Below are positions 1-62,636 of a DNA stretch of 64,000 nucleotides, piece after piece. Each line of letters starts with the position of its first letter. Position 1 is the first letter of the stretch. Source of the stretch: Cladophialophora immunda (taxonomy: Eukaryota > Ascomycota > Eurotiomycetes > Chaetothyriales > Herpotrichiellaceae); assembly GCF_000835495.1 (NCBI RefSeq), contig NW_015622543.1, positions 2,648,806 through 2,712,805 on the forward strand. Reading direction: 5' to 3'. A program made the translations under genes and the position numbers. Below the pieces are notes generated by a model that made no database searches, was not told the DNA's origin, and saw nothing but the letters and a program-made list of their open reading frames with translations.

Positions 1-250
1 AAAAGCCCCGGTAGTTGCAATGCCACCCTCAAGGGCATCCAGCGATCCGCGCCGACCGAATGACCCAAGACCGCATCCGAGTGAACCTTCATGCCCGCCA
101 GCTCGCGCCAAATAGTTGTCACCGCGATAGGAAATGCACAAGAGAAACGGTATGACCTTCCCATACCAGCCTTTCTCCAAGACCATGTGTCCGCCACATC
201 ACCCGGTAGTCGAGCCATACCTGGATAAGTTGACACCATCTTCTCAGTCT

Positions 251-3224
251 CTACTCTCCATGTTCATTCTCAACGTCGCGCTCCCTCTTCAAGCCCCTCT
301 TCTCATCTTTTTGACCCTCCTCGATCATTCTCAGAAGGTCATTGACATAATCCCGCAATGTCCGGCTCACGCTCAACACATGAAAGAGTGCATACTTATG
401 AGCTCCGAATAACCTCTCGTTCAGCCTAACTCCGTCTTTCTCAAAGGGCTGGCCATGCTTGTTGGCATACCGCGCCAAATTCCGGAGAATCATAACACTC
501 ATCCAGGGTATGCCGCAGGGATGGTTGGTTTGATCCATTGCTGTGTAGTGCCATTCGTGCTTCATCTGGACAGGGTCTGGATCTTTGATGTCTTGCGCCA
601 ACTCGTGGATGAGTTTGGACTGTTCACTGGCCGCCTGGGGAATGTGCATACGCATGTGAGGCCCGATCTCGCTGCTCTTCGTTATCGCAGATTTGCGTCC
701 GCAATGTGTCCAGCGACATATCCACCCCTGACCGTCTTTTGGCACGAAGCGCCCTTCGGGCTTCTTCTCAATTCTCAGATGGTCTGTCATAATATGATTC
801 CATAGAGTTTCACGTCTTGTATGCCAGACAGGACATAGATTTCGCGGGTGGACCCGGCCGCTCTGGTCCTGCATATCAGGACGAGACATATCCCACAGAC
901 ATTTGAACAGAGGTCGGCCTTGGAGATCGACGAGAATCCTCCGTGGTTTAATCCCCTTGATGATGAATCTTGGTGTTGGACCATTAATCACTTGAGCCTG
1001 GGCTGAGACGAATGTGTTTGATACATTCTTGATGAAGTCAGCCGCGGGGACGGGATTATTCTGTGCGAATTTGCCCTGGTATGCCTGCCAAATGGCGATT
1101 TGAGTGATGTCTTCAGTCGGACACTCCTCAAAGCAACACCGAAGCCATCTGGATGAACGTTCGGGCTCGACAAATTGTAAGAGATGTGCATGCACTTCAG
1201 GGGGGATGATAGGGATTGGGGCGGGAATCGATGCCATTCTAGGCGTTGGTTTCGCCACAACGTTTTCCTCGTGGGTGATTGACTGGTAAAGCAGAAGACT
1301 CGTGAGGCGAGAAATGATGTTTGGTAGAAGATGGAATGCGTTCGAGAGCAGTTCTGTGTTATTCTCCGGGATAGCTGTGTATTCGTAGAGGAAATCGAGC
1401 GAATTTTCCAGGAGCTCGTTGTCGTCGAGAAGGGTGAATGAAAACAATCGCTCCACTGTCGACAGAGGTACGTCGGTGAGACGGTGTGCATCAGCCATTT
1501 CGAGTCCGATTCGGTTGATCGACCGTAAAGCTGAAATTATCATACTGCGGTCATCGGACTCGAGGTATGGAAGGAGCGACATGTACAGCGGATCTTGGGG
1601 CTTCATTTCCCAGTACCTGGTGACTTGTTCAGTAACTTCGAGAGCGGACTGTTTGTACTCGACAATTCTGGGTTGGTGTGGGAGTGAGAGGGCAATTGTG
1701 AGGAAGTCCTTGAACAAGGGAAATTTCGAGAGGAAAACAGCATTCTCTTCGAGAATCACCATATTGCGGAGGACGAGGACGGCTTCTTTTAACTTCTCCA
1801 ATCTCTCTGAGAATTCGGCAGATTCCAAATCCTTATCCACGACCTTGGGGGTGATAGCTTGAATACGCGCGAGCAAGTTTGATGTCCCGAGGGCCGCATT
1901 CAGAGTGTTGAGTGATTGGCCTTCGTCATCCTCCTCGTAGCTGACCTCCCATGTGATGCCACAGATAAGTTGTGTGATCTCCAGGGCTTTTTCGAGCAGA
2001 GACTCGGCAAGGAAGGGAAATCCTTCGAATTTGTACTTGTCGCCCCGCTCATATGATACTTTCACCAAATGGTGTAAGGCAAAGTCCTGCTCTTCTTGGA
2101 CACCCGATCGCAGGCCATAGAGGCACCTCAGGTAGATATTTGGGCCATTCATACCCGTTGGAATGGATGACTTGAGGAATTGTTGTGGTTCAGGCGGGAC
2201 TCGTGGCGTGTTCACGGCTTTGGCATGCGCTTTGCGAGCGTAATACAGAGGGTCATTCCCAGGAGTGTGAACTTGTCGAAGGGTCAAAGCGACGGGTTGT
2301 CGTGGCTCGTATTTATCGAACCAGTCAAAACTAGGGTTGCGAGGATCATTTGAGGTGTTTGAGTAAGGCTGTTGTAAGGGGGGCGGAGCGGAGGGAGAAT
2401 CGGTCGCGCGGACAGTACGACCGCGTGTAGGTGCAGTATCTGGCTGGAACAGTTGGGTGCGTTTGGGGTCTTGTCTCAGTTGGCCTGTGAGAAACGTGTT
2501 AATAGAAGGTAGAATGATGTTGGTGTGATGTGTGGAACATACGAGTGGGATACCTGCTTGCGCTTCCTTGCTCTTCTGGTTCAGTCTTTTCGCGCTTGGG
2601 CGTGACCTGAATCTCGTCTTCGCTGGAGTCTGCTTCTGACTCTGCTCCTCCGTCCGGCATTGCCATCTCGATTGCAGGACGGTGAGGCACGGGGTAATTT
2701 TCTAGGGTCCGAGTTCGCAGATCACCTCCTTTAGCACTGAGATCTTCGAGGATTTCTCGTGGCGGCGGCTCTTCTCCCCAGTAGGTAGAAATCTCGTACG
2801 CGCTTTTGACGGAGGAACATGTGTCAGTGAAGGGTTCGCAGCAGCAGAAGAAGCCGTGTTTGGTGTCACTCACGCAAGATTCTTGTAATATACCGTTTTG
2901 AGTTGAAATGTCATGACGGCCTCATGGGTTTTGCCAAAGCCAAACTCCTTGACAAGGGTCCTCCATTGCATTCGTTCTGCCGACAAAGCATCATATCCGC
3001 CTTTGTCCATGACCAATTTGTACAGCTTGTGCAAGGAGATGGGCCGGCCACTAACTTTGCCCTCGCGATCGAAGGGGGTCCTGTCGCACAGACGCGCGCC
3101 GTCAGCATGATGGACTGTTTGTGCCCGCGCAGGCATCTACACACCCTCGCTTCTCGTGAAAAGCAGCAACATCGCTGAGAAACTCCTCCTCGTCCTCGAT
3201 CATCTTGCGGGGCGGGGTTGCCAT
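251..3224 (-). CDS. rsc9: RSC chromatin-remodelling complex subunit Rsc9 (ARID and RFX-like domains)
   Basis: Nuclear subunit of the RSC/SWI-SNF-type remodeller that moves nucleosomes at promoters. I read four exons, 3224-3145, 3080-2874, 2802-2543 and 2484-251, giving 926 residues. All three introns are GT-AG, and each junction restores a continuous family-like reading: FHEKRG|TPFDREGK, YYKNLA|AYEIS and YPT|RQLRQDPK. An ARID DNA-binding domain occupies roughly residues 17-98 (SGRPISLHKLYKLV, then GGYDAL). A long helical region follows, then an RFX-type winged helix (WLRCCFEECP, IWQAYQGKF) near residues 620-700. C2H2-like cysteine/histidine pairs lie near the C-terminus (CRWTHCGRK, HMRMH). 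The start is the first ATG that allows the short first exon. The gene lies head to head with the REC114-like gene, 504 bp away. Family assignment is strong; exact exon ends are inferred. Confidence 0.88.
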
Positions 3225-3728: not shown

Positions 3729-5837
3729 ATGCCTTCTCAAGGATCTCAACCCCTCTCCCAATCATCTCCTTTGTGTTTCCCTTTGCTCAAATTTTCTTAT
3801 GCTACTGTATCTAACGAAAGCATTGCTCCCATACCATGGATTCATCTCTCCAGCAAGGGTGTTCTCTTCGCCATTTTTGAAACCAGCTCGGTTCAGCTGA
3901 GAGATGGTCGAACTGAGGAGTGTCAAACGTTCAAAGTGCTGCAAGATCCTGAAGTCATGGTATAGGAAACCACTTCAGAATCGCTCTGTTCCGGGTGTGT
4001 GCAAGTCTCATCAGCTTACAGGAAGAACTCGACCTCAATGAGTTGGCGGTCGACGCCCATCTTGCTCTATTTGATGCACGATACGCACCAACTGCCAATG
4101 TCCCTCACGTCGCCATCATAGTCAAAGTGCCTATGATTGCAATCAAATATCCCATGCCTAATGGACAGGTGACAAAGACCCATATCCAAGCCTTCAATAC
4201 TCACCAGACTCCAGATCCGACGTTTTCAGATTCGCTTCTCCGAGAATGAAGACTACTACGAAGCCATGAAGATGCTCTCGAGGGCGAATGTGCCCACCGT
4301 CGAAGCCGGTACCTTTCCAGCTCACAAACCACAAGTCGCACCAAGACCAGCCGCATTGAACCCCGTAACACCTAGCGACTCCGTTTCTCAAATTGGACTG
4401 TCGATACCTGGTTCGAGGGAAAACACTACAAACAATGACATGTCTGCTCTCTGTGTGTCTCGACCAATGGCTCCTCCACAGAGATTTGTGGCACCTGCAC
4501 AACCAGCACAATATTCTTTGAGTGCACGACCACCACCTGATGGAGACTTGCGCCCGGTGCAGACGCCGGATCTTGGGCGTGCATATCCCAAATCTAATCT
4601 TGCACTTAGCACCGCCACTACTCTGGTTCCCGAGACACAGCATCTCAGAAGACCCCTTGCTTTGCAAAACCAATCAGAAGACGAACGTGGCGGTGATATA
4701 CGCAGCCGGCAATCGGCCATAGCGTCTCAGTACCCCGAGTTTCAGGCCTTGCTGGGAAACACAGACCTAGGGCTTCATGGAGCGCAATTAGCATCGCAAA
4801 TTACAAGATCTCAAGTCAACCATCACACCTGTTCACCCTTTACAGGCGGAAGCGATGGTCCAGTCGGTAGGATAGGGCGAATTGATGAGCAACTCACAAG
4901 TGTCCAAGAAGACTCAAGCCTTACCACGACCACGACCGCGAAAGGTAAGGGAAAGCGAAACGCGGCAAACAAGCCCGCAAAGGCGCCAGCAGTCAAAAAG
5001 CCCCGAACTGCCGCATCGCGCAAGAAGACTACAACAAAGAAAGCACAAGAGGACAAGCGGGTGCCGACTCTTGATGAACTACTTCAACAACCGGGATACA
5101 GTTTGCTGCCGAACACTACGACCACCGAGTCCCGAAGCATTCCATGTCTGGAAAATAATCCGACCGAGCTCGACCAGAGGAAGAGCGTGGAAATTGCCGA
5201 AACAGAGTACGACGCCGACCTCCACCCAGCTCAGGGTAGTTCAAGTCTCGGTGGCACGACGACCGGGTGCTTGACTCGCCCTGTATCTCGAGCCCTTTCG
5301 TCGATTCCAATGCAATATATCGAAGGAAGCGATGAAAGCGTTCCCAAAGCTGCACTTGCACCATGTACGCCAGCAGACCAGATCATCATCAACCCAGCAA
5401 CGCCAGCTTCGCCAGCCGCTCAGGCACATACTACAGCCCTACCTCAACCCACGTCTATTCCGCACCATCGGGAACCCGGGGCTACGCCCCATACCCAAGA
5501 GCCACAATCTTCAACCCTTCCTGTACCCGACAGCGCTCTCCTCGACCTCGCACAGCAGTGCCTTTCCGCGGACCCGGCATTCGACCTCTCCTCCGCTCAG
5601 TCCCGGCTTGAGGCGTGGATCAAGCTACCTGAGCCGACACAGGCGACGGCGCTGAGGACTTATTTCTGCGACCTGATCATGACAGAGGGGTTCAGCCAGC
5701 TGTGCAAGAGCGTGGAACTGTTTTGGGAAGGCGCAATTCTGGAGGGGAGGATGATGACAATGACTGCGGCGGCGGGGCCCGGGGCGGTGACGCCGGATCC
5801 TGGCTCGACACACGAGACCGACGAAGAAGAAATTTAG
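3729..5837 (+). CDS. Probable meiotic recombination protein Rec114
   Basis: In other fungi Rec114 works with Mei4 and Mer2 to support Spo11 double-strand breaks in meiosis. I read three exons, 3729-3959, 4022-4168 and 4215-5837, giving 666 residues. An in-frame ATG at 3711 would add six residues. Both introns (62 and 46 bp) are GT-AG and phase 0. The N-terminal ~135 residues look like the compact PH-like Rec114 domain, with FSYATVS, WIHLSSKGVLFAIF and, across the second junction, GQ|IRRFQIRFSENEDYYEAM. A long disordered middle (about residues 140-590) is rich in Pro, Ser and Thr and has a Lys/Arg-rich patch near 4940-5060. The C-terminus has a helical block (LCKSVELFWEGAILEG) like the family's C-terminal helix. 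The family is fast evolving, so this is a moderate call from shape and motif order. Confidence 0.62.
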
Positions 5838-46483: not shown

Positions 46484-47146
46484 GACTGAGAGGTGTATGA
46501 GCAATTAGGTGGCAGGTGGTCGGGGGAATGTGCGCGACTGCAGAGATGTGCTCAACATGTGCGGAAAGTGACTGGACGGTGCTGAATATAGATTCCCTAC
46601 TGGCCTGCAGTAGATCTCGCGCCGTAGGAGACTCAAGAAAACACAAAAAATTGACAGCAGTCTAGGATTGATAGCAGAGAATTCTTTGATTGACAATCGA
46701 AGAAGAAGACGTGAACTTCCCCGCCGCGGCCACTGTGGACGTGGAGCAGATCCAGCCACAGTTTTGCCGGGGCCGGCCCTCGAGAGCATTCACTACGGTG
46801 TCTGTGCTGCAAACAGAACAACAACACCAGCAACTCTCACAAGTAACCGCCCGAATTCTAATCTATTGATACTCTCCCACGCCAGCATCTTCACTTCACC
46901 TTCCTTATACATCCTTCTGCGGGCCTTGAGCACCTTTCCCGACTAGACACCGCCTTCCATGCATTAATTGACCACACCCTGCACCTTCATGGTCGGTGGC
47001 GCATTTGTTTTGGGTCGCAGCAGACTGGGGGGTTTGAATCGATGACCTCTCGACCGCGTTCCCTCACAAACACCCAGACGTAATCAATCACTCAACATAT
47101 TCTTCACCTTGTATCAGGGTCGATCGACTCGTCGGCTGATCCCAAC
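46484..47146. promoter_or_regulatory. Divergent promoter region (SND2 / CDC27)
   Basis: 663 bases between opposite start codons. No TATA box or named operator is evident. Small open frames here look random. Confidence 0.45.
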
Positions 47147-49649
47147 ATGGCACCTACTCAACCTCACATTGCCGCGCAGCTCCGCCAACTGATCTACTAT
47201 CACCTCGACAACAACCTACTCAGAAATGCCCTCTTCCTCGCTTCCCGTCTCGTCGCCTACGAGCCTCGCTCTCCCGAAGCTGCCTACTTGCTCGCATACT
47301 GTCAATTTCAATCAGGGTTTCTGAAAGCTGCGTGGGACACTTCACGCGCCGCAGCTGTAAAAGGTATCCACTTGGGATGCAGTTACATTTTCGCTCAGTG
47401 TTCTCTAGAACTCGGTCGGATTCTCGAAGGTCTCACTGCGTTAGAGAAATGCAAACACCACTGGCAAAATAGGAATACGTGGAGCCAACACAATGAGTCG
47501 AGACGCCAGCATCTTCCCGATGCCGCGGCCGTCTTATGCCTCAAAGGGAAGCTCTGGAAGGCACATAAAAATGTAGACCAGGCTGTGGAGTGTTGGGCCG
47601 CGTCTTTGAAACTGAACCCATTCATGTGGGATGCATTTATGGGGTTATGCGATGCCGGAGCGAAGATTAGTGTGCCCAACATCTACAAGTTGAACAATGA
47701 GATGGTAGCAGCGACGCATTCAGCGCAACAGCAGAGCGCAAGAATTGAAAATGCGCCGACAGAGAAGGGATCGGGAACGAGTTCGCAAGCACCATCAGAT
47801 CCGTTTGTCTCGACGCAAAAGTCCAGCATGCAGCAACAATCGGGGAACTCAGTGCTATGGGAAAAACTTAATGGAAGCAAAATGAGCGTCAACACAGTCA
47901 GCACGGTTTTGGACGAGGAAGGTCTCGCTACTCCGTCAACAGAGGCCGAAGGGGACGAAGCCGTCCTGCACGGTGCCCCGCTCAACAACCAATATCACGA
48001 ACCACCGCCGGCACCCATCAGAAAAGCGAAGACCTTGACGGAGACACACGCAGATCCTCCTCCTAGGTGGAAGTCAGGATCTACTAGGATAAGGACAAAA
48101 GCAAAAGGTGCATCGGATGAATCTACCACTGTCTTACAAGATCCTCCTCCACAGCCACTGCCAGCAGCACCTTCTAAGAGAACGGTTTCGGGTCAGCCTG
48201 CTCCAACATCCTCTCATGCTGCTCCCTCAAGTATTACTGAGGGAACGAGAAGAAGTAATCGGCTGCTTAACACAACACGACCACCTAGTGCGAGTAGCAC
48301 AGCCGGGAGCAAGATTTCGTCTCTGGCAAACACGCTCGGTCTAAGAGAAGGACGAGATATCAAGAAAGCGAAGGCCCCAGTTGCGAAAGGCAGAACAGCG
48401 AACGCCGCAACTGTCGGGAGGGTCGTGAGCGGGAATAGGACGAGGACCGGGTCGGCCGACCAAATGGACGTGGACGCGAAAGAACACAAAAATGCTCCCA
48501 ACGCAAACGCACCTCCTCCCGTACCACCTCTCCCAAATCACAAAACACGAGTGCCCTCGACTGCGGACAGAGAGCTAGAAGCACTCCAAACTCTTTTGGA
48601 TCTATCTGGGAGAATTGCTTCCGCTCAGCTCTGCCTCTCCAACTATGACTGCCAAACCGCCATTCAGATGTACAATGCCCTTCCTTCCTCACAGCGTGAG
48701 ACGCCTTACATCCTAAGTCAAATTGCCAAAGCCTACTATGAACAGGCCTCGTACACCGAGGCTGAGAAATTCTTCATCCGCGTCCGTCAACTTGCGCCCA
48801 CTCGTCTTGAAGACATGGAAGTCTACTCGACAGTCCTCTGGCACTTGAAGTCAGAGATTGAACTGGCCTATCTGGCACATGAGCTCATTGAGATTGACCG
48901 ATTGTCACCTCAAGCGTGGTGCGCAATCGGGAATTCCTTTTCTCTTCAGCGCGAGCATGAACAAGCATTGAAATGCTTCAAACGCTCAACTCAACTTGAC
49001 TCGCAATTCGCGTACGGGTTCACGCTCCAGGGACACGAGTACATCGCCAACGAGGAGTTCGAGAAAGCCCTTGAAGCGTATAGAGCAGCGATCGCCGCGG
49101 ATGGGAGACATTACAACGCATGGTACGGTTTAGGAAAAGTGTACGAGAAAATGGGCAAGTGGAATATTGCGGAGCAGCATTATCGGACGGCAGCGAAGAT
49201 TAATCCCACCAACGCTGTGTTGATATGTTGTATCGGCCTCGTTCTGGAAAAACAGAAGCATCCAGAAGACGCACTACTCATGTACACTCGCGCATGCAGC
49301 CTGGCGCCCCAGTCGGCCTTGAGTCGATTCAAGAAAGCGAGATGTCTGATGAGCTTAGGGCGTCCGAGGGAAGCGCTTGCCGAATTGATGATATTGAGGG
49401 ATGTGGTGCCTGATGAGGCGAATGTATGGTTCCTGATGGGACGTCTCTACAAGACTTTGAGAGACAAAGGCAATGCTGTGAGAGCCTTCACCATGGCGCT
49501 GAACTTGGATCCAAAGGTATGTCTTGACAAGTTTCGCATGAGTCAAGGGTGACTAACAGGGAATTCAGGCTGCCCAATTCATCAAAGACGCGATGGAGAG
49601 TCTGGACGATGATGATGACGATTATGACGAGGATGAAGACATGGAGTGA
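47147..49649 (+). CDS. cdc27: Anaphase-promoting complex subunit Cdc27/APC3 (BimA)
   Basis: TPR subunit of the APC/C ubiquitin ligase that binds activators (Cdc20, Cdh1) and drives anaphase and mitotic exit. I read two exons, 47147-49516 and 49569-49649, with a 52-bp intron (GTATGT, ACTAAC branch, TTCAG), giving 816 residues. The N-terminal TPR block begins LRQLIYYHLDNNLLRNALFLA and includes EPRSPEAAYLLAYCQFQSG. A disordered linker of about 300 residues (roughly 190-480) separates it from the C-terminal TPR superhelix (PQAWCAIGNSFSLQREHEQA, AWYGLGKVYEKMGKW, VWFLMGRLYKTLRDKGNA). The last exon adds AAQFIKDAMESL and a very acidic Asp/Glu tail typical of the family, which supports the intron. Without splicing the frame would stop early, at 49552. 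Confidence 0.95.
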
Positions 49650-51174: not shown

Positions 51175-54100
51175 TCACAACTCGTCCTTCACGTACTTGG
51201 TCGCGCTGCTCGCTGACTCGCTCACCACGCTGGCGATGCTCTCTACGCTTTCACTCACTGCACTCACCACCCCCGTCGCGCCTTCACCTACTTCACTTGC
51301 CATGGCCGCAATCCTGCTGTTGGCACTGCCCACAGCTTCGAGGATCTGTGAGTTGATGCTTTCCATGTAGCTCTGTTCAGGTCCATAGACGGCTTCTGAG
51401 GCCTTGGCGACGAGGCTCTCGACAGTATCGCTTACTGCGGAAGCCGCCGCCGCCGCATTCTCAGCAACGATAGATGACGCAGATGAGTATGTATCGGCCG
51501 CAGCGCTGGTCAAAGATTCAATTGTCCCCGTAGGCGTTCCGTAGATAGCAACACTTACGGCATCCTGCGCGCTCTTTGCCAAGTCTGCAAATGAGGACGA
51601 TGCAGCCTCCGCATAGCCAACGGGAGTGCCGTAGATGGCTTCACTGACTGCTGCGCTGGCGGAGGAGTAGCTGTCGGCCACAGCGGATGTTGCCTGTTCG
51701 ATAGTTCCCTTTGGCGTGCCATAAATCTGTGCACTAGCTGCGTCGACAGCAGCATTCAATTGTTCTGTCACTGAATCCAAAATGGAGGAGACCTCTGGTG
51801 GAGGGGTGAAGTAGGACGCTGCAACAGAGGAGACAGAAGAGGCCATGGATGACGCGGAGTCGTACGCTTCGCTCGCCAGACTGGAAGCCGAGCTATAGCC
51901 CGTATAGTAGGCGGAGCTGAGGCGACTCATGACCGATTCTGTAAAATCGGGCTCTTTGCCTACTATCAGTTCCGAGATATATGATTGGACGATGACATAT
52001 TTATCGTTCGCAAAGTCCGTGACCTGGGCAGAATAATCTCCAGCTTGGGTAGCGAAACCTTCATAGAAGGGTTTGGGGGTGCCGTAAATTTGTTCGCTAG
52101 CTTTGGCAATGAGCGCTTGCCAGTTCTCAGATGCCACGCTGGAAATCGATTCAACGGAACCGGTTGGAGCACCGTAGACGGCTGTACTTGCCGCGTAGCT
52201 GGCGGCCGAGAGAGATGACGAGGCGGCAGAAATGGCTGCATCATATTGTGACGAGATGGAATCAAGAACGCTCTGTGCTGGGGAGGTCTCTTCCATGCCC
52301 AGGACAGATGAAGCCGACTCGAGCATTTCCGACATCTGGGAAGCAGCTGCGGAGGAAGCAATCTCATACTGTGACGATGCTGCTTCCAAAGCGGTCTGAT
52401 AAAATGGCGCAGGGGTGCCATAGACAGCAGTGCTTGCAGCATAGGAGGCAGAAGACAGCGAAGACGAGGCGGCGTCAACAGCGCTTGAATAAGCTGCCAC
52501 AGCTTCATCCCACAGGCTCTGGACGGTTGTGCCCGACGATGATCTGAATGAGTCCAGGCTGGAAACAGCTGCCGACGAGGCCGCCGAATATTGGGAAGCG
52601 GCGGCGTCCAGGAGGCTTTGGTACGCTGGCACAGGCGTCCCATAGATTCCGACCGATACAGCGCTCGAGACACTGCTCAACACTGGTGTTGGCGTCCCGT
52701 AGACTACACTCGAAGCCGCGGCAACAAAGTCATCATACTGCTCGTGCGCCATTCCAACGGCAGCGTAATAGTTCTTCCTTGCTTCTTGGAGATATCTTGC
52801 ATGAGCAGGGGTAGCAGTGGCGCCAACAGCAACCTTTGCCTTCGAGTATTGAGCCGAAGCTTCAGCCAGAGCGTTTTGCAGAATTGTCGATGCCATTGAC
52901 GAAACAGACTCGAGGGGGTTGGTTTCCGGAAGCGCATTCGACGCAGAACTTCGGGCGGATTCAAGTCTATCGGTCGCGGCGGCCACGGCACCAGAATAGG
53001 CCGACTCAATCGAAGAGAACATTTGTTCATGAATAGGTTTCGGAGTGCCGGATATCTGCTGAGAAGCAATCGATTTGGCAGCGTTGTAATTGTCCTCAGC
53101 TCTGCTAACAGCCTCACTGTAGAGGGAGCTGGCTTGTTGGAGTAATGACTGGGTGACAGGGGTTGGCGTTCCGAAGATGATTGAGCTCGCAGCCGCCACA
53201 GCCTGCTCATACTTTTCAGACGCAGCACTTGCGACGCTTTCAGCAGCACCAGTCGGCGTACCATACAAAACATTGGAAGCTGCAGCTAAAGCGCTGGCAT
53301 ACTGCTCGCTCGCGACAGACGTGATGCTTTCCACTGTGCCTTGAGATGTTCCGAACATGGCTTCAGATACTGCACGAGAAACCTCCGCATAGCGATCGCC
53401 AGCTTCGTTGATCACGCTCTGAACATTCTCAGAGAATGTCGACTCCTCGTTGTTGTCAAATATATCGTCCAGAATAGGCATTGAACCCTTCACTTCTGCA
53501 GCCATAGCACCTCCGAAGACTTTTGAAACCCTAGTGGTTGCTGAATCTGCGGCGGCGGAAGCGGAGCTGACAACATCCTCCGCAGTAGCGCTTGCTGAGG
53601 AGAGCTCGTCTGTTGATGGTGAAGCAAAAGATTCAACCGACAAAGATGCCGAGCTCGCTGAGTCCGTGACGTCTTCTGTGAAGCTCGAACCAGCCTCCGC
53701 TGCGTCAGAAAGGATGGACTCGGCAGTCCCAGGAGGACTTCCAATAACAGCGGAAGATGCAGAATCGTACGCGTCTGAAACCGTGGCGCTGATATCAGAA
53801 CCAAACGATTCAATAGGCGCCGCAACAGAAGATTCCAACACTGAGGATACCGACGAAAAGGCATCACCAGCAACCTCGTCAACTTTGGATGTCGCGGACT
53901 CCACGGCGCCAGTACTGGTGCCTACGACTGCAGATGAAGCAGACAAGGCCGCTTTGGTAGCAGCATCGCTGCCTTCCGATAAAATAGAGCTGACGGACTC
54001 TGCAGCTTCCGAAGGGGCACCCTGAAGCTCGGCCACCATACTCGAAGCAGCTGAAACTGCTTCCGCTGGCATAATTCGAGTTTCGAAATCATCCGATGAG

Positions 54101-55869
54101 TCGCGGGCTTTCAACTTCCACTGAGCAACACTCTTGAGTCTACCCAGTTCTTTCGCCGCGTCTTCGGTGATTGCCATGCTTTCTTCCAGGATTTGTCGAG
54201 CCGTGGCAATTGCTTCTTCCGCCTCTGGGCTCTTCATGGCAACGTCCTGAACCTCGATTTTCCATTCATCAAGCTTCTTTCGGAGCTCATGAAACTTCTC
54301 CCAGTGTTTGTAGGTGACTCCTTCCATCCAAGCCCAGCGCATTCCAACTTCTTGAAGCCCGATGTCTTTTATCCCATCCAAGACCTCCAGAGTAGAAGCC
54401 GAGGCAGCTTCAAGTCTTTGTATCAAGCCTTGTTCAAAGTTCTGAGACCAGTTTCGGACGTTTCGAGCACGTTCCTTGATCTCAGCGCCTGAGGATCTGA
54501 TTGATCCGAGAATCTCTTCTGCTGCCCCTTTCACTGCCTCTGCACTCGCATCTTCAGGAAGAGCAGCAACAGTTGACTTTATTTTTGTTTTGACCTTCTC
54601 AAGCTCATTTTCCGCGGACTTCTCCAAAGCTTTGGCCAATCCTCGACCAACTCCGTCAATGTCGCTCTTGACAAGGCTGTTGACGATAGAGGTGACTCGC
54701 TCTCGAAGGTCATCGCTACCCTTATCAGCCGCCAAAGCAAACTTCTTTTGCCAGCTTCGAAGATCTTCAGTAATTTGTTCCTCTGTGGCATATTCAACCG
54801 GTCGTTTCACACGCTCTTTGGCGGTCGGTTGAGCCTCTTGGGACGTGGTCGTAGAGGAGGGTTCTGCTTCATCTTCCGAATCAAACATAGCATACACATC
54901 ATCCATTATACCGGTGGTTGCGCTTGGAGTGGCAGAGGCAGTGAAGGTCGATTGCGTGCTATCTACCTCGTCCATGGCGGCCTTCAACTGGCGGCTCTCT
55001 CGATACTTGGCAATCCTCTCATTGATCATGACTAGCTGAGGCCTAACATTGTCGATGTAAAGACCCTTCACAAAGGGCCAGAAAGTGCCGTCCATGAAAA
55101 TAACGAGGTCCAACCAAGCATGTCGCAGCAGAGGATATGCGGTGTTCAGTGCGAAGTCTTGGCTGATATTGTATGCTTTGTGGAGATGTGGCCGGGAGTA
55201 TTCCATCGCTGGGACCAGATGTTGTCGGTACACTTGGTAAACATGATCTCGTGCCGGAATGTAGTACGGCTCGGCCGATGCGACAACTTGGTCAACATGG
55301 GGTCCAACGTTCTTCTCATAGAATCTGACAGCATTTCCCCGGGCCAGGTTGATCTGAGGCATGATAGTCTTGTCCCATTGCGCTTGAGAGTATGCCTTCA
55401 CGGCGTCGATCTTGGGAGCAGCATATTTCTCATAATTGACCACAGCAATTTTGGACGCAGGTCGCACCAGTCGGCTATTCACCAGGTGTGCGTATGGCTC
55501 GGCTTTGGCAACGTAAGGAGCTGCATATTCATCGTAATATGGTTGCAGATGAGGTTGGATGTATTCCTTTGCGGATAAGTACGGTCCACATATTCGCGGA
55601 GAGGTATCGGTGAGGGCGGTCCTCGAGGAGGGACAGCTGAATAGGATGGTGAAGAGGCAGTACCATATGGCAAGCCTATGGAGTGGTCAGGATATCTCGG
55701 ACAAATGGGTGGACAGTTTGACCTACCTCGCTGAGTTGTTGACTAGTCTGAAGGCCCAGCTCCGACGATGGCGCTGGTGAGCAGGTCGCCGTGTAGGCGG
55801 GCCTACAGCGTGCCCATTGGGTCTGTCTTTGACACTGTCTATAGGACGTCCATTCTCAACTACTGCCAT
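51175..55869 (-). CDS. Large Ala/Ser-rich repeat protein with signal anchor and C-terminal KDEL
   Basis: Function unknown. I read two exons, 55869-55727 and 55675-51175, with a 51-bp GT-AG intron, giving 1,547 residues. The join SA|RLAIWYCLFTILFS creates a single hydrophobic segment at residues 49-61, preceded by a strongly basic stretch (RRPAHQRHRRSW). This fits a type II signal anchor with the rest in the ER lumen. Residues ~75-270 are a helical, aromatic region with recurring Y..P and Y...PY units (QPYYDEYAAPYVAKAEPY, EKYAAPKIDAVKAY). Residues ~300-550 look coiled-coil-like. The last ~950 residues are Ala/Ser-rich helical repeats punctuated by YGTP-type loops (at least 11 clear copies). 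It ends TKYVKDEL and stop, a canonical ER-retrieval sequence. I recall homologues labelled 'transcription factor hoxa13', but I see no DNA-binding domain. Confidence 0.85.
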
Positions 55870-56882: not shown

Positions 56883-59800
56883 TTACCAGGCTTTCTCCTT
56901 GCCTCTCCCGTTGGCTGCAGCCTCTCTTCTTCCTCGCGGTTTCGGTTCCTGAAAGTTATGCAGCCTCTCGCCAATCAAGTACACTTCGTCCCTTATCTTA
57001 ATCCTCCAATTCTCCATTTTCCTCCTCATGTATAACAAGCCTACATAGTTCACCATCATGCACAGGAAAAGTGGATATGCGAAACGATACATCCGAATTT
57101 GCTGTCTTAAATCGGAAATTCGGAGGATGCTGATGATGGCTCTCATGCAAGCAAGAGGCGCAATGAGGAGCGTAATACAGATGATCGTAGCCGGGAGAAC
57201 GAAAGCGCGGGACGCGAGAGGGATGTCGGCGTGGAAAATGCCGTTGCGGACGATCCCGCGGAGAGCCCTGGCAGGTCGCACGGTAGGTGGGAGGATGTGG
57301 GCCAGAATGCGGAAGATCAGGCGTAGGAAAACGAGACCGATCGTCCAGGACTGGAGAATGAAGATTGTGGCAGGCGGGAAAGCCTTGCTTGTAGCCGCCC
57401 CAGCCGATGGCGGTGGGGTTGAGGACGAAGATGGTGAGGAATCGTGGGTAAGCTTTTGGTGATTAACGACTTCGAGCAGGTCGAAGATCGGAATGTGGAC
57501 ATACAGCTCGACAATCAGAGAGAGAACGAAGGGGAGAACGATGGTAGTGAAGCCCCCAAGGTACGCCAGGCCAAGAACGTGCAGCGTCGAGGCTAGGAAC
57601 CGCGTTCCAGACCATTTGAATTTCTGCTGTAGGTAGTCTCGAGCCGGCCGGGCGTAGGCGATAGCATATCCCATCGCAGCAAAGATATGAATGCCAATGG
57701 TGAAAGCATACAGATCATTTGGCGGGTGAGGTGATTGCGAAAGGATTCGAGTCAGTTTGCGGCCGACTATCAGGGGTCCCACCGTGAACGCGACACCAGT
57801 TGAGGCCGCGAAGAGCCACAACAAGACCACAAATGTTGCAATCCGAGTTCTGAAGTTCGGGGGAAGGTATACCTTGGTGAACTGAGGGTTTTTCTTGCCA
57901 TGAGGGGCATAGAATAGCTCTGGTTCGCCATCCACTCTCTCGTTGTCTTCTGTGACTTCGAGAAAGACCCTGCGGCCTTTCGAGATGCGCACAGAGTCGG
58001 ATGCAGGCGCACGGACATAGCGCCCGTCCCGTCTCGGTTCTGCCAAATTGTCTTTGGCGAATAAGTTCCACGGAAACCCTGTCGGGTGACTGAATGTCTC
58101 TTCTTTGCGCTCTTCCCCAAAGAGAAAGTTGGTCAATCTCAACCACCCGGCACATCCTCGGAACCACCATTGATACATTGCGGATATCTTCTTCGATGGC
58201 TCGGCCCTGCGCAAGACAAACGGAAGGAGAAAGTTGTAAAAGATAATGTCGACTGGGAACGACAGCCTGGGCTCCGGAGTCGACCATTGAATGGGCAGAA
58301 CGCCGCCAAACCAGTCTATTGACCATACCACGCCCCCAAGGCAGACAATGACCAAGCCACCATAGACCAACGCCGAGAACGCAATTTTGCCCAATTGTGC
58401 CGGAACAGGTCGTTCTAGAACATCGCGCACCGGATGAAACGTTGGATCGTCAGGATCTCGAATAAAATACAGGACTCCTTTTCGCATGATTTTCCGGCAT
58501 ATTGATACAAAGAGGGCGAAGTGAAACATGTAACAGGTTCCGATGAACCAGTGTATGAAAATCCCGGTCATTGGAGTGCGCACCAGGAAAGCAATGCGGC
58601 TAGCAACGGTGGCATTGGCAAAAAGAGGAAGAAGTGCCATGTCCAGGAGCAGTCCACAGTACAAAGGAAAGGCCAGCATCTCAATTCCGATGATGACGAT
58701 GACTTTCATCACGCCACCTGCTTGCCGCAGGGAGTCTGCGAAATAGCCCTCAACCCTCTCGCCATCTTTCAAGCCAAGGACGAGATGAGCAATCTCAAGA
58801 AACACGATTCCGGCAATGGCGAAGAACGCATAACCGAGCAGAATCGTGAGAATCCGGTCTTCTGTGCCCCACTCAATCAGTGAGGGGTCCATCCCATCTG
58901 CATTGTTGGATGGCAACGAGCCCAGATCCGTGGACAAGGAACGAAGGAGGCTCGTTGCATATTCACCGAGGAGAGGGATCTTCCCAAGCAGTTTGGGCAC
59001 AGATTTCAGGGTGTACCAAAACGAGTTCAACAAGGCACCAGAGCCCTTGCGGTCCATGGTCAATATCATTTGACCTTGGACTAGGACAGAAGTGATCCAT
59101 TGGACTGCTGTATGTAAGGAAGACTTGAAAGAGATGAGTGCTCGATGTGACTGCATCGAAAATGTCGGCAAATCCGGCCTAAGGCTGAGGACGGCGGCAG
59201 AGAGAGTCTTTTCCAAGCGCAGACCACTCTTTTGACTCAGGTCGAGGCTAAAGCCTTCCAATGTGGCAGTGTCGAGGATGCCCCCAAGACGAGGTAGGAA
59301 GGGAGACAGCATGGCCTTCATGATTTTTAAAGGCTGGTTCAGGAGGAAACCGGCAAGTCCAGCGACGAAGAAAATGATATCAACCACAATATCCGCAGTC
59401 CGTGACAGTACGAATATTGGCGCCTTCACCAACATGCTGGTAGGACTTGAGAGGAATAAGAGTGCAATCTTTCCCCATATGTAAGGACACCAGACACTAG
59501 CCGATAAGGTTACCGTGATGAGAAAAAGGGAGAAGATGACATTCTGGACCATGCCGAAAATGGGTCCTTCCATACCAAGAAGTTCCAGGATGCCGTCAAG
59601 ATCTTCTGCATCATCCGGGTTAGGTTCATTGAGGTCAACTCCGAAAAGCATATTGGGCTCCCTTGCTTCCGGAGGTGCAGCGGGTGGTTCCTCGATGGGT
59701 GCGAGAGGCACCGGTCCAAGGGCAGCGTCTCGGTTTTGGATCGGTACAAATGGAGCTTCGGCGTTGACGTCTTCCACAATGCGTTCCTCGTCTTGATCTT

Positions 59801-61790
59801 GTGCACGTGCCGGATCGCCGGCCTCCGCAGGAAGCTGATCGTCGGCCTCAAAATCGGTGTGCCAGAGCCAATGTGATATCTTTCCCCATATTGTTGTATC
59901 TCCCAGCGCATCGTCGTCATTAGATGCGAGGGTTTCTTCAGGCTGGGCACGATCTGTGCCGTCAAAAAGAGCTTCCTGATCTTCACCACCTGGAAAGTTG
60001 TCCCCTGGTTGCAGAAGTTCATCCGCATCATTCGAATCAGGTGTGGGTATCACAGGCGCGTCTGAGTCGGACCCGTGTCCATCGACGTTCAAGTCAAACA
60101 ACCCATTTGTTGCATCGCCGACCACATCTGACACCTCTACCAATGACACTCTTCGACTAAATGAGTCCGCTAATTCCAAGTCTTCTTGCCCAATTGGCTG
60201 ATGCTCTGGATATTGCATTTGTCCCACGTCGGAGATATCAGAACCATCCCCGGGAAACAAGTAATGTTCCATCTGAATGGGGGATTCATCGCCGCTGCTT
60301 GTTTCAGCAAGATTTCGACTTGGAGGCACTAGAGGCAGATAGTGATTAGCTTCAGTGTCATCGGCGCTGTGTCTTCTGAACGGCAGATTCCAAGGTTCAA
60401 TTGCAGACACGCTGCTTTCTCCAGGAACTCCCCAGCCAGCATTATGCTCTTGAACAGCTTCGGCAATGGCTGATGTGCTTTGCGATCTGGTCCTCAGAAC
60501 CGGTCTGTCGAAATCATATGCTGTTCCGTTGCTCATGTTATCGTCCGAAAGAGTGCGACGCGGCGATAGTGTTGGCGGAGTCGGATCTTCTGGAGGAATT
60601 CGTGCTGCAAGACGCTCTAAAGCAGCTATTTCATCTGCGATGTTATCGCCAAAACGGGGAATGCGGTGTTGATTGGGAGGTGGTCTCGGCGGAGCTATTT
60701 CCTCGAGAGGTAATTGTGCTGCGAGATGCTCCATGGCAGCTAGCTCATCTGCGACATTATCGCCAGCGCGGGGAATACGCGGTAGGTTGGGTGGTAGAGG
60801 CAGTCCCGTTTCCTCAGCGTGAGGATTTTCGTCCGGGTCAGGCATGTTCAGGATCGGCTGTTGGTTGATGACCCATTCTCGAATCAAAAACACGAGGATG
60901 AATGCCGCGACCAGCAAGACACAGATCAACTGGCCTTCGATCACATCGATGGTAACGTGGTTGACCATAGGAGAAGTAGACCACGTCGCTATGAATTGAA
61001 CGTCGGATAGCAAGGAGGGAGGTCTCCGGGCTGTTGCAGACAATTCCGCCATGGAGTTCTGACCATGTCCAGGTGTATCAATCTGCCTCAAGCGTGGGAT
61101 GAAAATGGATAGAATGAAGCGAAGAATCTTGCCAATCATGCTTTGACCAAGGAATAGCCGCGCAATATCAGCCAAGGAAATCTGCATCGGGGGAAAGACC
61201 AGTTTGATCTTCTCCAGCTGTTGGGGAACAGTGAGATTCAAGGAAGTAGCAAGCGATGATTCGGGCCCGGCGATGGTGCCGGTGATGTTTGAAGATTGGT
61301 TGGACGCGGCTTGAACGGTGGATTCATCCACCCAGTTCCCATCAGCAAGCCAGAACAGACCCCTCCATATCTGTCGGATGCACCAAGGCAAGCAACAAGT
61401 CCAGATGATGCTCACCAGCAAGTAGCGTGACCAGCGAGCAAACTCGGTCGCCCCATGACGGGCCAATTGGCGCAGAAAGAGGGGAAACGGTAGGGTGGCG
61501 GGCATCGAGCCGTCGTAGAGTTTGGTGAATCGAAAAGAAGTCTTGCATAACTCGCAGTATTTTTTCTGGGAATGTGAGAGCCATTCCATTAGGCATTCTT
61601 GGTGGACAAATTTAATGCTGCCAGAGCACTTGCAAGGATAGTAGAGAGGTTGCGTGCTGGTGCCTTCGCCACGGCAGATACGACAGTAGTCATGTCCTTC
61701 TTCATTGCCCGCGGTACCGGTGGAGGTTCTGCGCGTGGCGGTGCGAGCCAGGGGGGTGTGAAGTTTTTCTTCGAAAGGATTGAGCGGCAT
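56883..61790 (-). CDS. doa10: ERAD E3 ubiquitin ligase Doa10/SSM4 (MARCH6-like)
   Basis: Multi-pass ER and inner-nuclear-membrane RING ligase that ubiquitinates misfolded and short-lived proteins (ERAD-C) with Ubc6 and Ubc7. One exon of 1,635 residues from the first in-frame ATG. The N-terminal RING-CH (C4HC3) finger spans residues 36-84: CRIC, PCKCSGS, VHQECLMEWL and CELC, all ligands present. About 14 hydrophobic segments follow. A long acidic, disordered cytosolic loop (about 330-700) contains a tandem near-repeat (NVADELAAMEHLAAQLP and NIADEIAALERLAARIP). The conserved central membrane region (LDMALLPLF, IHWFIGTCYMFHFALFVSICR) and C-terminal segments are intact. It lies about 1.0 kb downstream of the KDEL repeat protein on the same strand. 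Confidence 0.95.
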   Translation of the reverse strand: MPLNPFEEKLHTPLARTATRRTSTGTAGNEEGHDYCRICRGEGTSTQPLYYPCKCSGSIKFVHQECLMEWLSHSQKKYCELCKTSFRFTKLYDGSMPATLPFPLFLRQLARHGATEFARWSRYLLVSIIWTCCLPWCIRQIWRGLFWLADGNWVDESTVQAASNQSSNITGTIAGPESSLATSLNLTVPQQLEKIKLVFPPMQISLADIARLFLGQSMIGKILRFILSIFIPRLRQIDTPGHGQNSMAELSATARRPPSLLSDVQFIATWSTSPMVNHVTIDVIEGQLICVLLVAAFILVFLIREWVINQQPILNMPDPDENPHAEETGLPLPPNLPRIPRAGDNVADELAAMEHLAAQLPLEEIAPPRPPPNQHRIPRFGDNIADEIAALERLAARIPPEDPTPPTLSPRRTLSDDNMSNGTAYDFDRPVLRTRSQSTSAIAEAVQEHNAGWGVPGESSVSAIEPWNLPFRRHSADDTEANHYLPLVPPSRNLAETSSGDESPIQMEHYLFPGDGSDISDVGQMQYPEHQPIGQEDLELADSFSRRVSLVEVSDVVGDATNGLFDLNVDGHGSDSDAPVIPTPDSNDADELLQPGDNFPGGEDQEALFDGTDRAQPEETLASNDDDALGDTTIWGKISHWLWHTDFEADDQLPAEAGDPARAQDQDEERIVEDVNAEAPFVPIQNRDAALGPVPLAPIEEPPAAPPEAREPNMLFGVDLNEPNPDDAEDLDGILELLGMEGPIFGMVQNVIFSLFLITVTLSASVWCPYIWGKIALLFLSSPTSMLVKAPIFVLSRTADIVVDIIFFVAGLAGFLLNQPLKIMKAMLSPFLPRLGGILDTATLEGFSLDLSQKSGLRLEKTLSAAVLSLRPDLPTFSMQSHRALISFKSSLHTAVQWITSVLVQGQMILTMDRKGSGALLNSFWYTLKSVPKLLGKIPLLGEYATSLLRSLSTDLGSLPSNNADGMDPSLIEWGTEDRILTILLGYAFFAIAGIVFLEIAHLVLGLKDGERVEGYFADSLRQAGGVMKVIVIIGIEMLAFPLYCGLLLDMALLPLFANATVASRIAFLVRTPMTGIFIHWFIGTCYMFHFALFVSICRKIMRKGVLYFIRDPDDPTFHPVRDVLERPVPAQLGKIAFSALVYGGLVIVCLGGVVWSIDWFGGVLPIQWSTPEPRLSFPVDIIFYNFLLPFVLRRAEPSKKISAMYQWWFRGCAGWLRLTNFLFGEERKEETFSHPTGFPWNLFAKDNLAEPRRDGRYVRAPASDSVRISKGRRVFLEVTEDNERVDGEPELFYAPHGKKNPQFTKVYLPPNFRTRIATFVVLLWLFAASTGVAFTVGPLIVGRKLTRILSQSPHPPNDLYAFTIGIHIFAAMGYAIAYARPARDYLQQKFKWSGTRFLASTLHVLGLAYLGGFTTIVLPFVLSLIVELYVHIPIFDLLEVVNHQKLTHDSSPSSSSTPPPSAGAATSKAFPPATIFILQSWTIGLVFLRLIFRILAHILPPTVRPARALRGIVRNGIFHADIPLASRAFVLPATIICITLLIAPLACMRAIISILRISDLRQQIRMYRFAYPLFLCMMVNYVGLLYMRRKMENWRIKIRDEVYLIGERLHNFQEPKPRGRREAAANGRGKEKAW

Positions 61791-62636
61791 CTTGTCTTGC
61801 ACAGACGGATACAGGATGTGGAGGGCGTTCAACGGTTTTCATATCGGCCAGGCAGTGAACTCAAGCCATCGCAGGGGGAGGTAGGGAGGAAAGGTGATGA
61901 CAGCCCCGAGGTCTTACTGTCTCTACTTCGTATGTTGGCTAGGACTGAAGGGTTTCCGTCATTTGACAAGGAAGAGATGGCAGATTGTTGTCTGAACGGA
62001 TAAAGGTCTGGGTGCAGCGCAGTCTGAGTGTGGAATGTCAGTTGGTAGTGCCCGGGGTGGTCGATGATGTCGGTCTCCGGATCAGTCACGTGTCAGACTT
62101 GCCGCTACGGTGGAGTATTATACGACTGCGCGCAAATCTTAGTGTCTTCGGCTGGTCTGTGGTATTCACTCTCTTCCCCTTGCGTTGACCCAGCGAAGGA
62201 GGATTGCCCAATTCCTCGAATTCCCATTCATGCTTGCTTTCCCCTCAGTCAATATCCACTTCGATGAGACTAAGCAAGCAGTCGTTCAAAGCGCATGCAT
62301 GCGAGGCACAAGGGCCTCGTTGTCGATGATTGGCCAACCCATCACCCTCGCTGGCTAGGTGGGAGGCCTTAGTTGCAACATAAATATGCCTCGTCCGCTT
62401 CGACCAGCAATGGGCGTACTCTCACACTCGCAGCTTACGAAACCCAGGGTTCGAAAGTCAGGTCCGGGCGCGAAGCCCGTAGCATGCCATACACCACATA
62501 CAGACGTACCCGTGTCTGTTTGCTTTGGTAGAACCGCCCGGTCAAAACTCTGAGAAGCTGACAGAAGCCCCATCCGCAGAGGGCGTCCTTTTTCCTGACC
62601 TCATCCATCGGAAAAATTGCAGAGGTTGCCATTGCG
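61791..62636. promoter_or_regulatory. Divergent region (DOA10 / Zn2Cys6 regulator)
   Basis: 846 bases between opposite start codons. Both promoters must lie here. Frames open on both strands show no family features, and I see no TATA box that I would defend. Confidence 0.4.

Follow-up and report, generated by a model that had tools for sequence, protein, structure and literature searches.

The gene on the minus strand at 51175..55869 of the window, the whole 64,000-nucleotide stretch of Cladophialophora immunda DNA analysed here (contig NW_015622543.1, positions 2,648,806 to 2,712,805), encodes a predicted protein of 1,547 amino acids (aa) that very probably resides in the lumen of the endoplasmic reticulum (ER), and by sequence similarity it belongs to a protein family of Pezizomycotina common to many filamentous ascomycetes. 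ER-lumen residence had been put forward in the original prediction from the two ends of the protein, and four features now agree on it: the [KRH]DEL ending, a charge asymmetry around the hydrophobic segment near the N-terminus, a pair of cysteines beside that segment and an avoidance of N-x-S/T sequons beyond it.

Three protein searches yielded 237 listed relatives (two of the listings represent 120 of 586 and 120 of 124 matches), and all family counts given here are among the matches listed. Those named relatives that could be assigned to a class by species name are Eurotiomycetes, Lecanoromycetes, Dothideomycetes, Leotiomycetes and Sordariomycetes. The closest of them come from Exophiala and Rhinocladiella, with P0001, P0002 and P0005 being 69, 64 and 60% identical over 100% of the length. 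In the 42.2-Mb C. immunda genome, the exon-2 open reading frame (ORF) has a single match, itself, which by sequence search makes one family copy. Alignments were made of 88 (A2) and 83 (A3) of 103 less redundant relatives, and a ‘named’ set of 136 was hand-picked from the search tables. No published description of the family was found by its label, gene names, the fungal family or an ER-sheet role in titles and abstract openings, subscription journals being mostly outside this scope.

The last four residues of the protein, KDEL (1544-1547; 51178..51189, minus strand), would be an ER retrieval signal. Among the first 154 relatives, 137 end in [KRH]DEL (107 KDEL, 20 RDEL and 10 HDEL), as do 154 of all 237 (122, 22 and 10, respectively, with another ending in 83) and 127 of the 136 named proteins. 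Conservation of these residues across relatives, which the original prediction had proposed to check, was seen in 150 of 156 when only relatives of 1,100 aa or more are counted, but the signal is lost in two Aspergillus forms and one Coccidioides form. As to the 83 relatives ending otherwise, 74 are unnamed ORFs from assemblies or metagenomes (median length 772), many of which break at the same place, ...YSDAVAA, presumably as a frame entering an intron donor would. KDEL receptors are described in PMC8248988 as accepting K, R or H at position -4, and the C. immunda genome has two Erd2-like loci (PF00810; G000:C3:867938-868303 and G000:C2:575033-575476). Two ERD2 orthologues are likewise given for Magnaporthe oryzae in PMC5430845, together with a set of 43 proteins ending in (K/R/H/Q/S/A)(D/E/N/Q)EL from which predicted membrane proteins had first been removed; an orthologue of the present family may be in that set as a hypothetical protein. 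Two relatives have variant ends, HGEL in P0159 (1,344 aa) and HSEL in P0215 (771 aa), which are possibly degenerate retrieval signals or frames entering introns.

Which parts of the protein face the lumen can be read indirectly from its sequons, the avoidance of which makes sense because oligosaccharyltransferase would reach lumenal sites. After the hydrophobic segment, N-x-S/T occurs 134 times versus 494.7 expected from block shuffles (ratio 0.27), in a test that used 99 of 101 proteins, the rest having no Cys motif or DEL. In the same proteins the reversed motif is found 457 times versus 494.6 expected (0.92), and other controls stand at 1.37 (N-x-A), 1.07 (N-x-x-S/T) and 1.07 (Q-x-S/T). Before the segment, in the 92 tails that had 25 residues or more, there are 57 sequons versus 65.7 expected (0.87, with 0.88 for the reversed motif), the tail controls being scattered on small counts (NxA 0.58, DxS/T 1.94). 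By region, the sequon ratio falls from 0.71 in the first helical region to 0.31 in the helical bundle that follows it and 0.12 in the C-terminal repeat array, bundle and repeat counts being from 62 proteins. An earlier version of the test on 32 proteins had also found E-x-S/T (0.61), S/T-x-E (0.66) and S/T-x-D (0.67) to be low, and since depletion of the glutamate motif in both directions points to helical patterning, a column-matched test was run on 95 aligned rows. The Mantel-Haenszel odds ratio for Asn followed by S/T at +2 was 0.31 after the segment (z -11.9, a value that, like the other z given here, overstates independence since the sequences share ancestry) and 0.91 in the tail, compared with 0.77-1.35 for 13 other residues and a slightly low 0.82 (z -2.9) for the reversed order, with S/T at -2 of N. 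In six clade samples, comprising 39 proteins with DEL and three without that were hand-picked by species name and taxonomy (P0009, P0011 and P0037 were placed by similarity), the ratio ranged over 0.11-0.60 and that of the reversed motif over 0.73-1.04, with the least avoidance in Eurotiales/Onygenales (0.60), followed by Sordariomycetes (0.50). No such pattern was seen in five other ORFs of the window, which have few motifs each. Sequons are thus avoided past the segment and not before it, which argues that the tail is cytosolic and the remaining ~1,480 residues are lumenal, and an N-in/C-lumen topology is supported. Comparing sequon avoidance between the two flanks of a hydrophobic segment in this way calls for nothing but sequences, and might serve for further families that lack annotation.

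The gene model puts this boundary close to an intron. Translation runs from an ATG at 55869-55867 to a stop at 51177-51175, across exon 1 (55869-55727), a 51-bp GT..AG intron (55726-55676) just 5' of the codons for the hydrophobic segment, and exon 2 (55675-51175), all on the minus strand, and the spliced product terminates in ATKYVKDEL. The intron, the 1,547 residues, the basic tail, the hydrophobic segment at 49-61 and the terminal KDEL, all described in the original prediction, were reproduced from the sequence. In the relatives P0004 and P0008 the ORF starts where residue 49 lies, which would agree with their having an intron there too. Exon 1 (55727..55869) covers codons 1-47 and two bases of the next, i.e. 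the basic N-terminal tail that is predicted to be cytosolic. The hydrophobic segment that follows (residues 49-61; 55636..55674, minus strand), with the family pattern RLxxWYxxxTxxFRCPS, is a putative ER-targeting signal or short signal anchor; the protein's most hydrophobic 19-residue window (42-60) overlies it, although its Kyte-Doolittle mean is only 1.31, and in many relatives its core is flanked by Arg. Of 92 proteins compared, 90 have a more positive charge in the 25 residues preceding the segment than in the 25 that begin with the first Cys (medians +5 versus +1). Immediately beyond the segment lies the cysteine pair C62...C77 (C-x14-C; 55588..55635, minus strand). Both cysteines are invariant across the 89 rows of A2, their spacing is 15 in 143 of 154 relatives (14-17 in 147; the pattern is unmatched in seven, several of which have no N-terminus), and total Cys is two or three in 135 of 154. 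The pair likely forms a lumenal disulfide beside the membrane.

The lumenal part is predicted to have three helical regions. The first is aromatic-rich (residues 77-290; 54949..55590, minus strand) and punctuated by prolines with a period of 19 residues: seven pairs among its 15 conserved prolines are exactly 19 apart, which was matched by one in 20,000 random placements at any distance. Its hydrophobicity has a period of 95 degrees (0.173 versus a shuffled 95% level of 0.134), equivalent to 19 residues per five turns, and its nonpolar face is rich in Y, A, V and L. Such Pro-punctuated amphipathic helices could instead belong to a lumenal lipid binder coating membrane or neutral lipid in the manner of an apolipoprotein, and some matches go in the same direction, since PF01442 scored 28.3, 27.3 and 20.1 bits in three of five relatives (with no match in the other two) and was found below threshold in four of 20 members when E values to 0.1 were allowed, alongside one sub-threshold ApoO match. 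The PF01442 cut-off is 90 bits, however, its three top stretches (P0102 1276-1383, P0120 590-757 and P0051 620-763) all lie past the Pro-punctuated region, and local helical moments are modest (0.02-0.39), so that a lipid-binding function appears rather improbable. AlphaFold2 modelled residues 49-640 from 89 rows with a mean predicted local distance difference test score (pLDDT) of 79.7, placing a single helix across 77-290 (residues 29-242 of the modelled fragment) with block pLDDT of about 68-91, followed by a stretch below 50. That the helix stays unbroken across this many prolines may be no more than a convenience of the modelling, and a kinked rod is equally likely. The second region is the best conserved, a helical bundle at residues 346-571 (54106..54783, minus strand; the GLQEIGMRWAWMDGVTYK region of the consensus), where invariant columns are present and pLDDT is mostly 91-98; fold searches returned generic helical bundles only.

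The third region is an Ala/Ser-rich array (residues 795-1546; 51181..53436, minus strand) of 22 predicted helical elements, 18 of which have 23-37 residues, and YGTPTP-like linkers recur between these elements in the sequence. The compositional bias that had been claimed for the protein is borne out by 207 S and 197 A within residues 541-1547. Ser/Ala richness, together with the database name of one relative (P0115) that mentions mucins, would suit a secreted or wall-bound mucin-like structural protein merely in transit through the ER, but the conserved retrieval signal, the predicted helical structure and the avoidance of sequons make this most improbable.

The database label of the family points elsewhere. 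UniRef names members ‘Transcription factor hoxa13’, a name that the original prediction had judged to fit neither end of the protein. No homeobox was found among Pfam matches of the exon-2 ORF at E up to 1 (47 residues of exon 1 lay outside this query), nor among the Pfam families that the listings give for 20 relatives (E limit 0.1), and the predicted topology is that of an ER protein instead; as judged from sequence, the label is a mislabel. A nuclear transcription factor, for which there is the label only, and a Mic60-like protein of the mitochondrial inner membrane, which has a similar outline of tail, hydrophobic segment and long helices, are both scarcely credible, because neither a homeobox nor the Mic60 family is among the Pfam matches and because sequon avoidance and [KRH]DEL would have no evident reason in the nucleus or the mitochondrion. 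No known domain, chaperone or thioredoxin included, is among the Pfam matches either.

Several observations weigh against an anchored, lumenal rod retrieved through its C-terminus. Nine of the 136 named relatives have no DEL. Two of these (P0018 and P0202) are partial by name and two (P0133 and P0205) break within the repeat array, while two (P0044 and P0211) are ambiguous, but three seem complete, from A. heterothallicus (P0222, 844 aa), A. candidus (P0225, 860 aa) and Coccidioides (P0224, 841 aa). The latter three show no sequon avoidance (nine versus 10.1 expected), a comparison limited by their having also lost most of the array, the region with the most marked avoidance. They retain the tail, the hydrophobic segment, the cysteines and the bundle, and may be viewed as a natural loss series in which the signal has gone together with most of the array. 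Unrelated C-termini, which would have spoken against ER retrieval according to the original prediction, are therefore a matter of this side branch, where the segment is kept, and not of the listed family as a whole. The first helical region, too, shows only weak avoidance (41 versus 58 expected), and a sequon at residue 217 within it (~55168-55170, minus strand) recurs in 10 of 32 proteins; this one recurring site of the family may be in use. Overall confidence is low in the model of residues 633-1547 (mean pLDDT 57.8), although it is high for the stretch 893-1042, with 12 of 15 ten-residue blocks at 82-96. Finally, the apolar core of the segment has ~12-13 residues, unlike a standard transmembrane helix, and on a flat biological hydrophobicity scale its best 13-residue window is at -1.17 and its best 19-residue window at +4.76.

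Because the segment is so short, it could belong to a signal peptide that has a long n-region and is cleaved, in which case the protein would be a soluble resident of the ER lumen, retained mainly by KDEL, with helix arrays that hold or chaperone secretory cargo. About 13 apolar residues is a length like that of an h-region, KDEL is typical of soluble residents, and a cut past S64 would place Cys at -3 and Ser at -1, in keeping with the rule for cleavage sites. However, this sole suitable site falls past C62, and cutting there would split the pair, stripping one cysteine and stranding the other although both are so strictly kept, which favours an uncleaved anchor. The non-DEL forms, which retain the segment and the cysteines, also suit an anchor. 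On these grounds a soluble resident seems unlikely, and an uncleaved short anchor is moderately favoured over a cleaved signal peptide.

A protein that is tethered to the membrane, lumenal, all-helical and repetitive, and in which no enzyme domain is recognised, would suit a structural role. In the mechanism that we propose, the short segment would stay uncleaved and insert as a type II signal anchor, held in place by the C62-C77 disulfide, the Pro-punctuated helix and the bundle would make up a rigid arm (~32 nm for a 214-residue helix at 0.15 nm per residue) and the Ala/Ser-rich helix array would lengthen it. Molecules would associate within the lumen, possibly antiparallel across it, and serve as a scaffold or spacer that sets the width or shape of the ER, a function comparable to that of metazoan CLIMP-63, while the KDEL, RDEL or HDEL end would bring back any molecule reaching the Golgi. 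If this is true, the rod possibly spans the lumen or links neighbouring membranes. The scaffold or spacer role, proposed by analogy, is tentative and we would give it somewhat less than even chances; the chain as a whole, from ER residence through an uncleaved anchor and a rod to a scaffold or spacer, falls only a little short of an even chance. The family would be a concrete candidate in several classes of Pezizomycotina, concealed by a wrong label.

Two neighbouring genes in the window have recognisable products. An ORF for a MARCHF6/Doa10-like RING-variant E3 ligase (PF23113, PF12906), by family also an ER protein, adjoins the gene at 56883-61838 (minus strand), and an APC3/Cdc27-like tetratricopeptide repeat protein (ANAPC3) lies on its other side at 47084-49552 (plus strand). 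Two further ORFs, at 251-2701 (minus strand, 816 aa) and 4173-5837 (plus strand, 554 aa), have no Pfam match within an E limit of 1e-5.

Comparison with known systems brings out what is particular to this family. With soluble residents of the BiP/PDI type it shares an Erd2-type end with K, R or H at -4, but its members mostly have 1.1-1.6 thousand residues, are likely membrane anchored and match no chaperone or thioredoxin domain. Apolipoproteins A1, A4 and E resemble it in outline by their Pro-punctuated amphipathic helices, but the period is 19 in the family versus 22 in apolipoproteins, and its best score was 28.3 of the required 90 bits. The closest parallel in architecture, though only in a predicted one on the fungal side, is CLIMP-63/CKAP4, which according to PMC6931119 is an N-in, single-span protein with a cytosolic N-terminal tail and long lumenal helices that bridge ER sheets, the length of the lumenal domain setting their width. 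CLIMP-63, kinectin and p180 were found only in some metazoa according to PMC9804665, and CLIMP-63/CKAP4 differs in being a metazoan protein of 602 aa described as coiled coils (PMC9804665 and PMC6931119). The KDEL end, the membrane-proximal cysteine pair, the 19-residue Pro period and the Ala/Ser helix array all set the fungal family apart from it. A giant ER spacer or scaffold that filamentous ascomycetes evolved for themselves, unrelated to CLIMP-63, in which a rod ~1,500 residues and tens of nanometres long would carry a type II anchor at one end and the Erd2 signal at the other, and which Aspergillus-type lineages would have shortened to its membrane-proximal arm, losing array and signal together, is a bolder and doubtful picture of the family.

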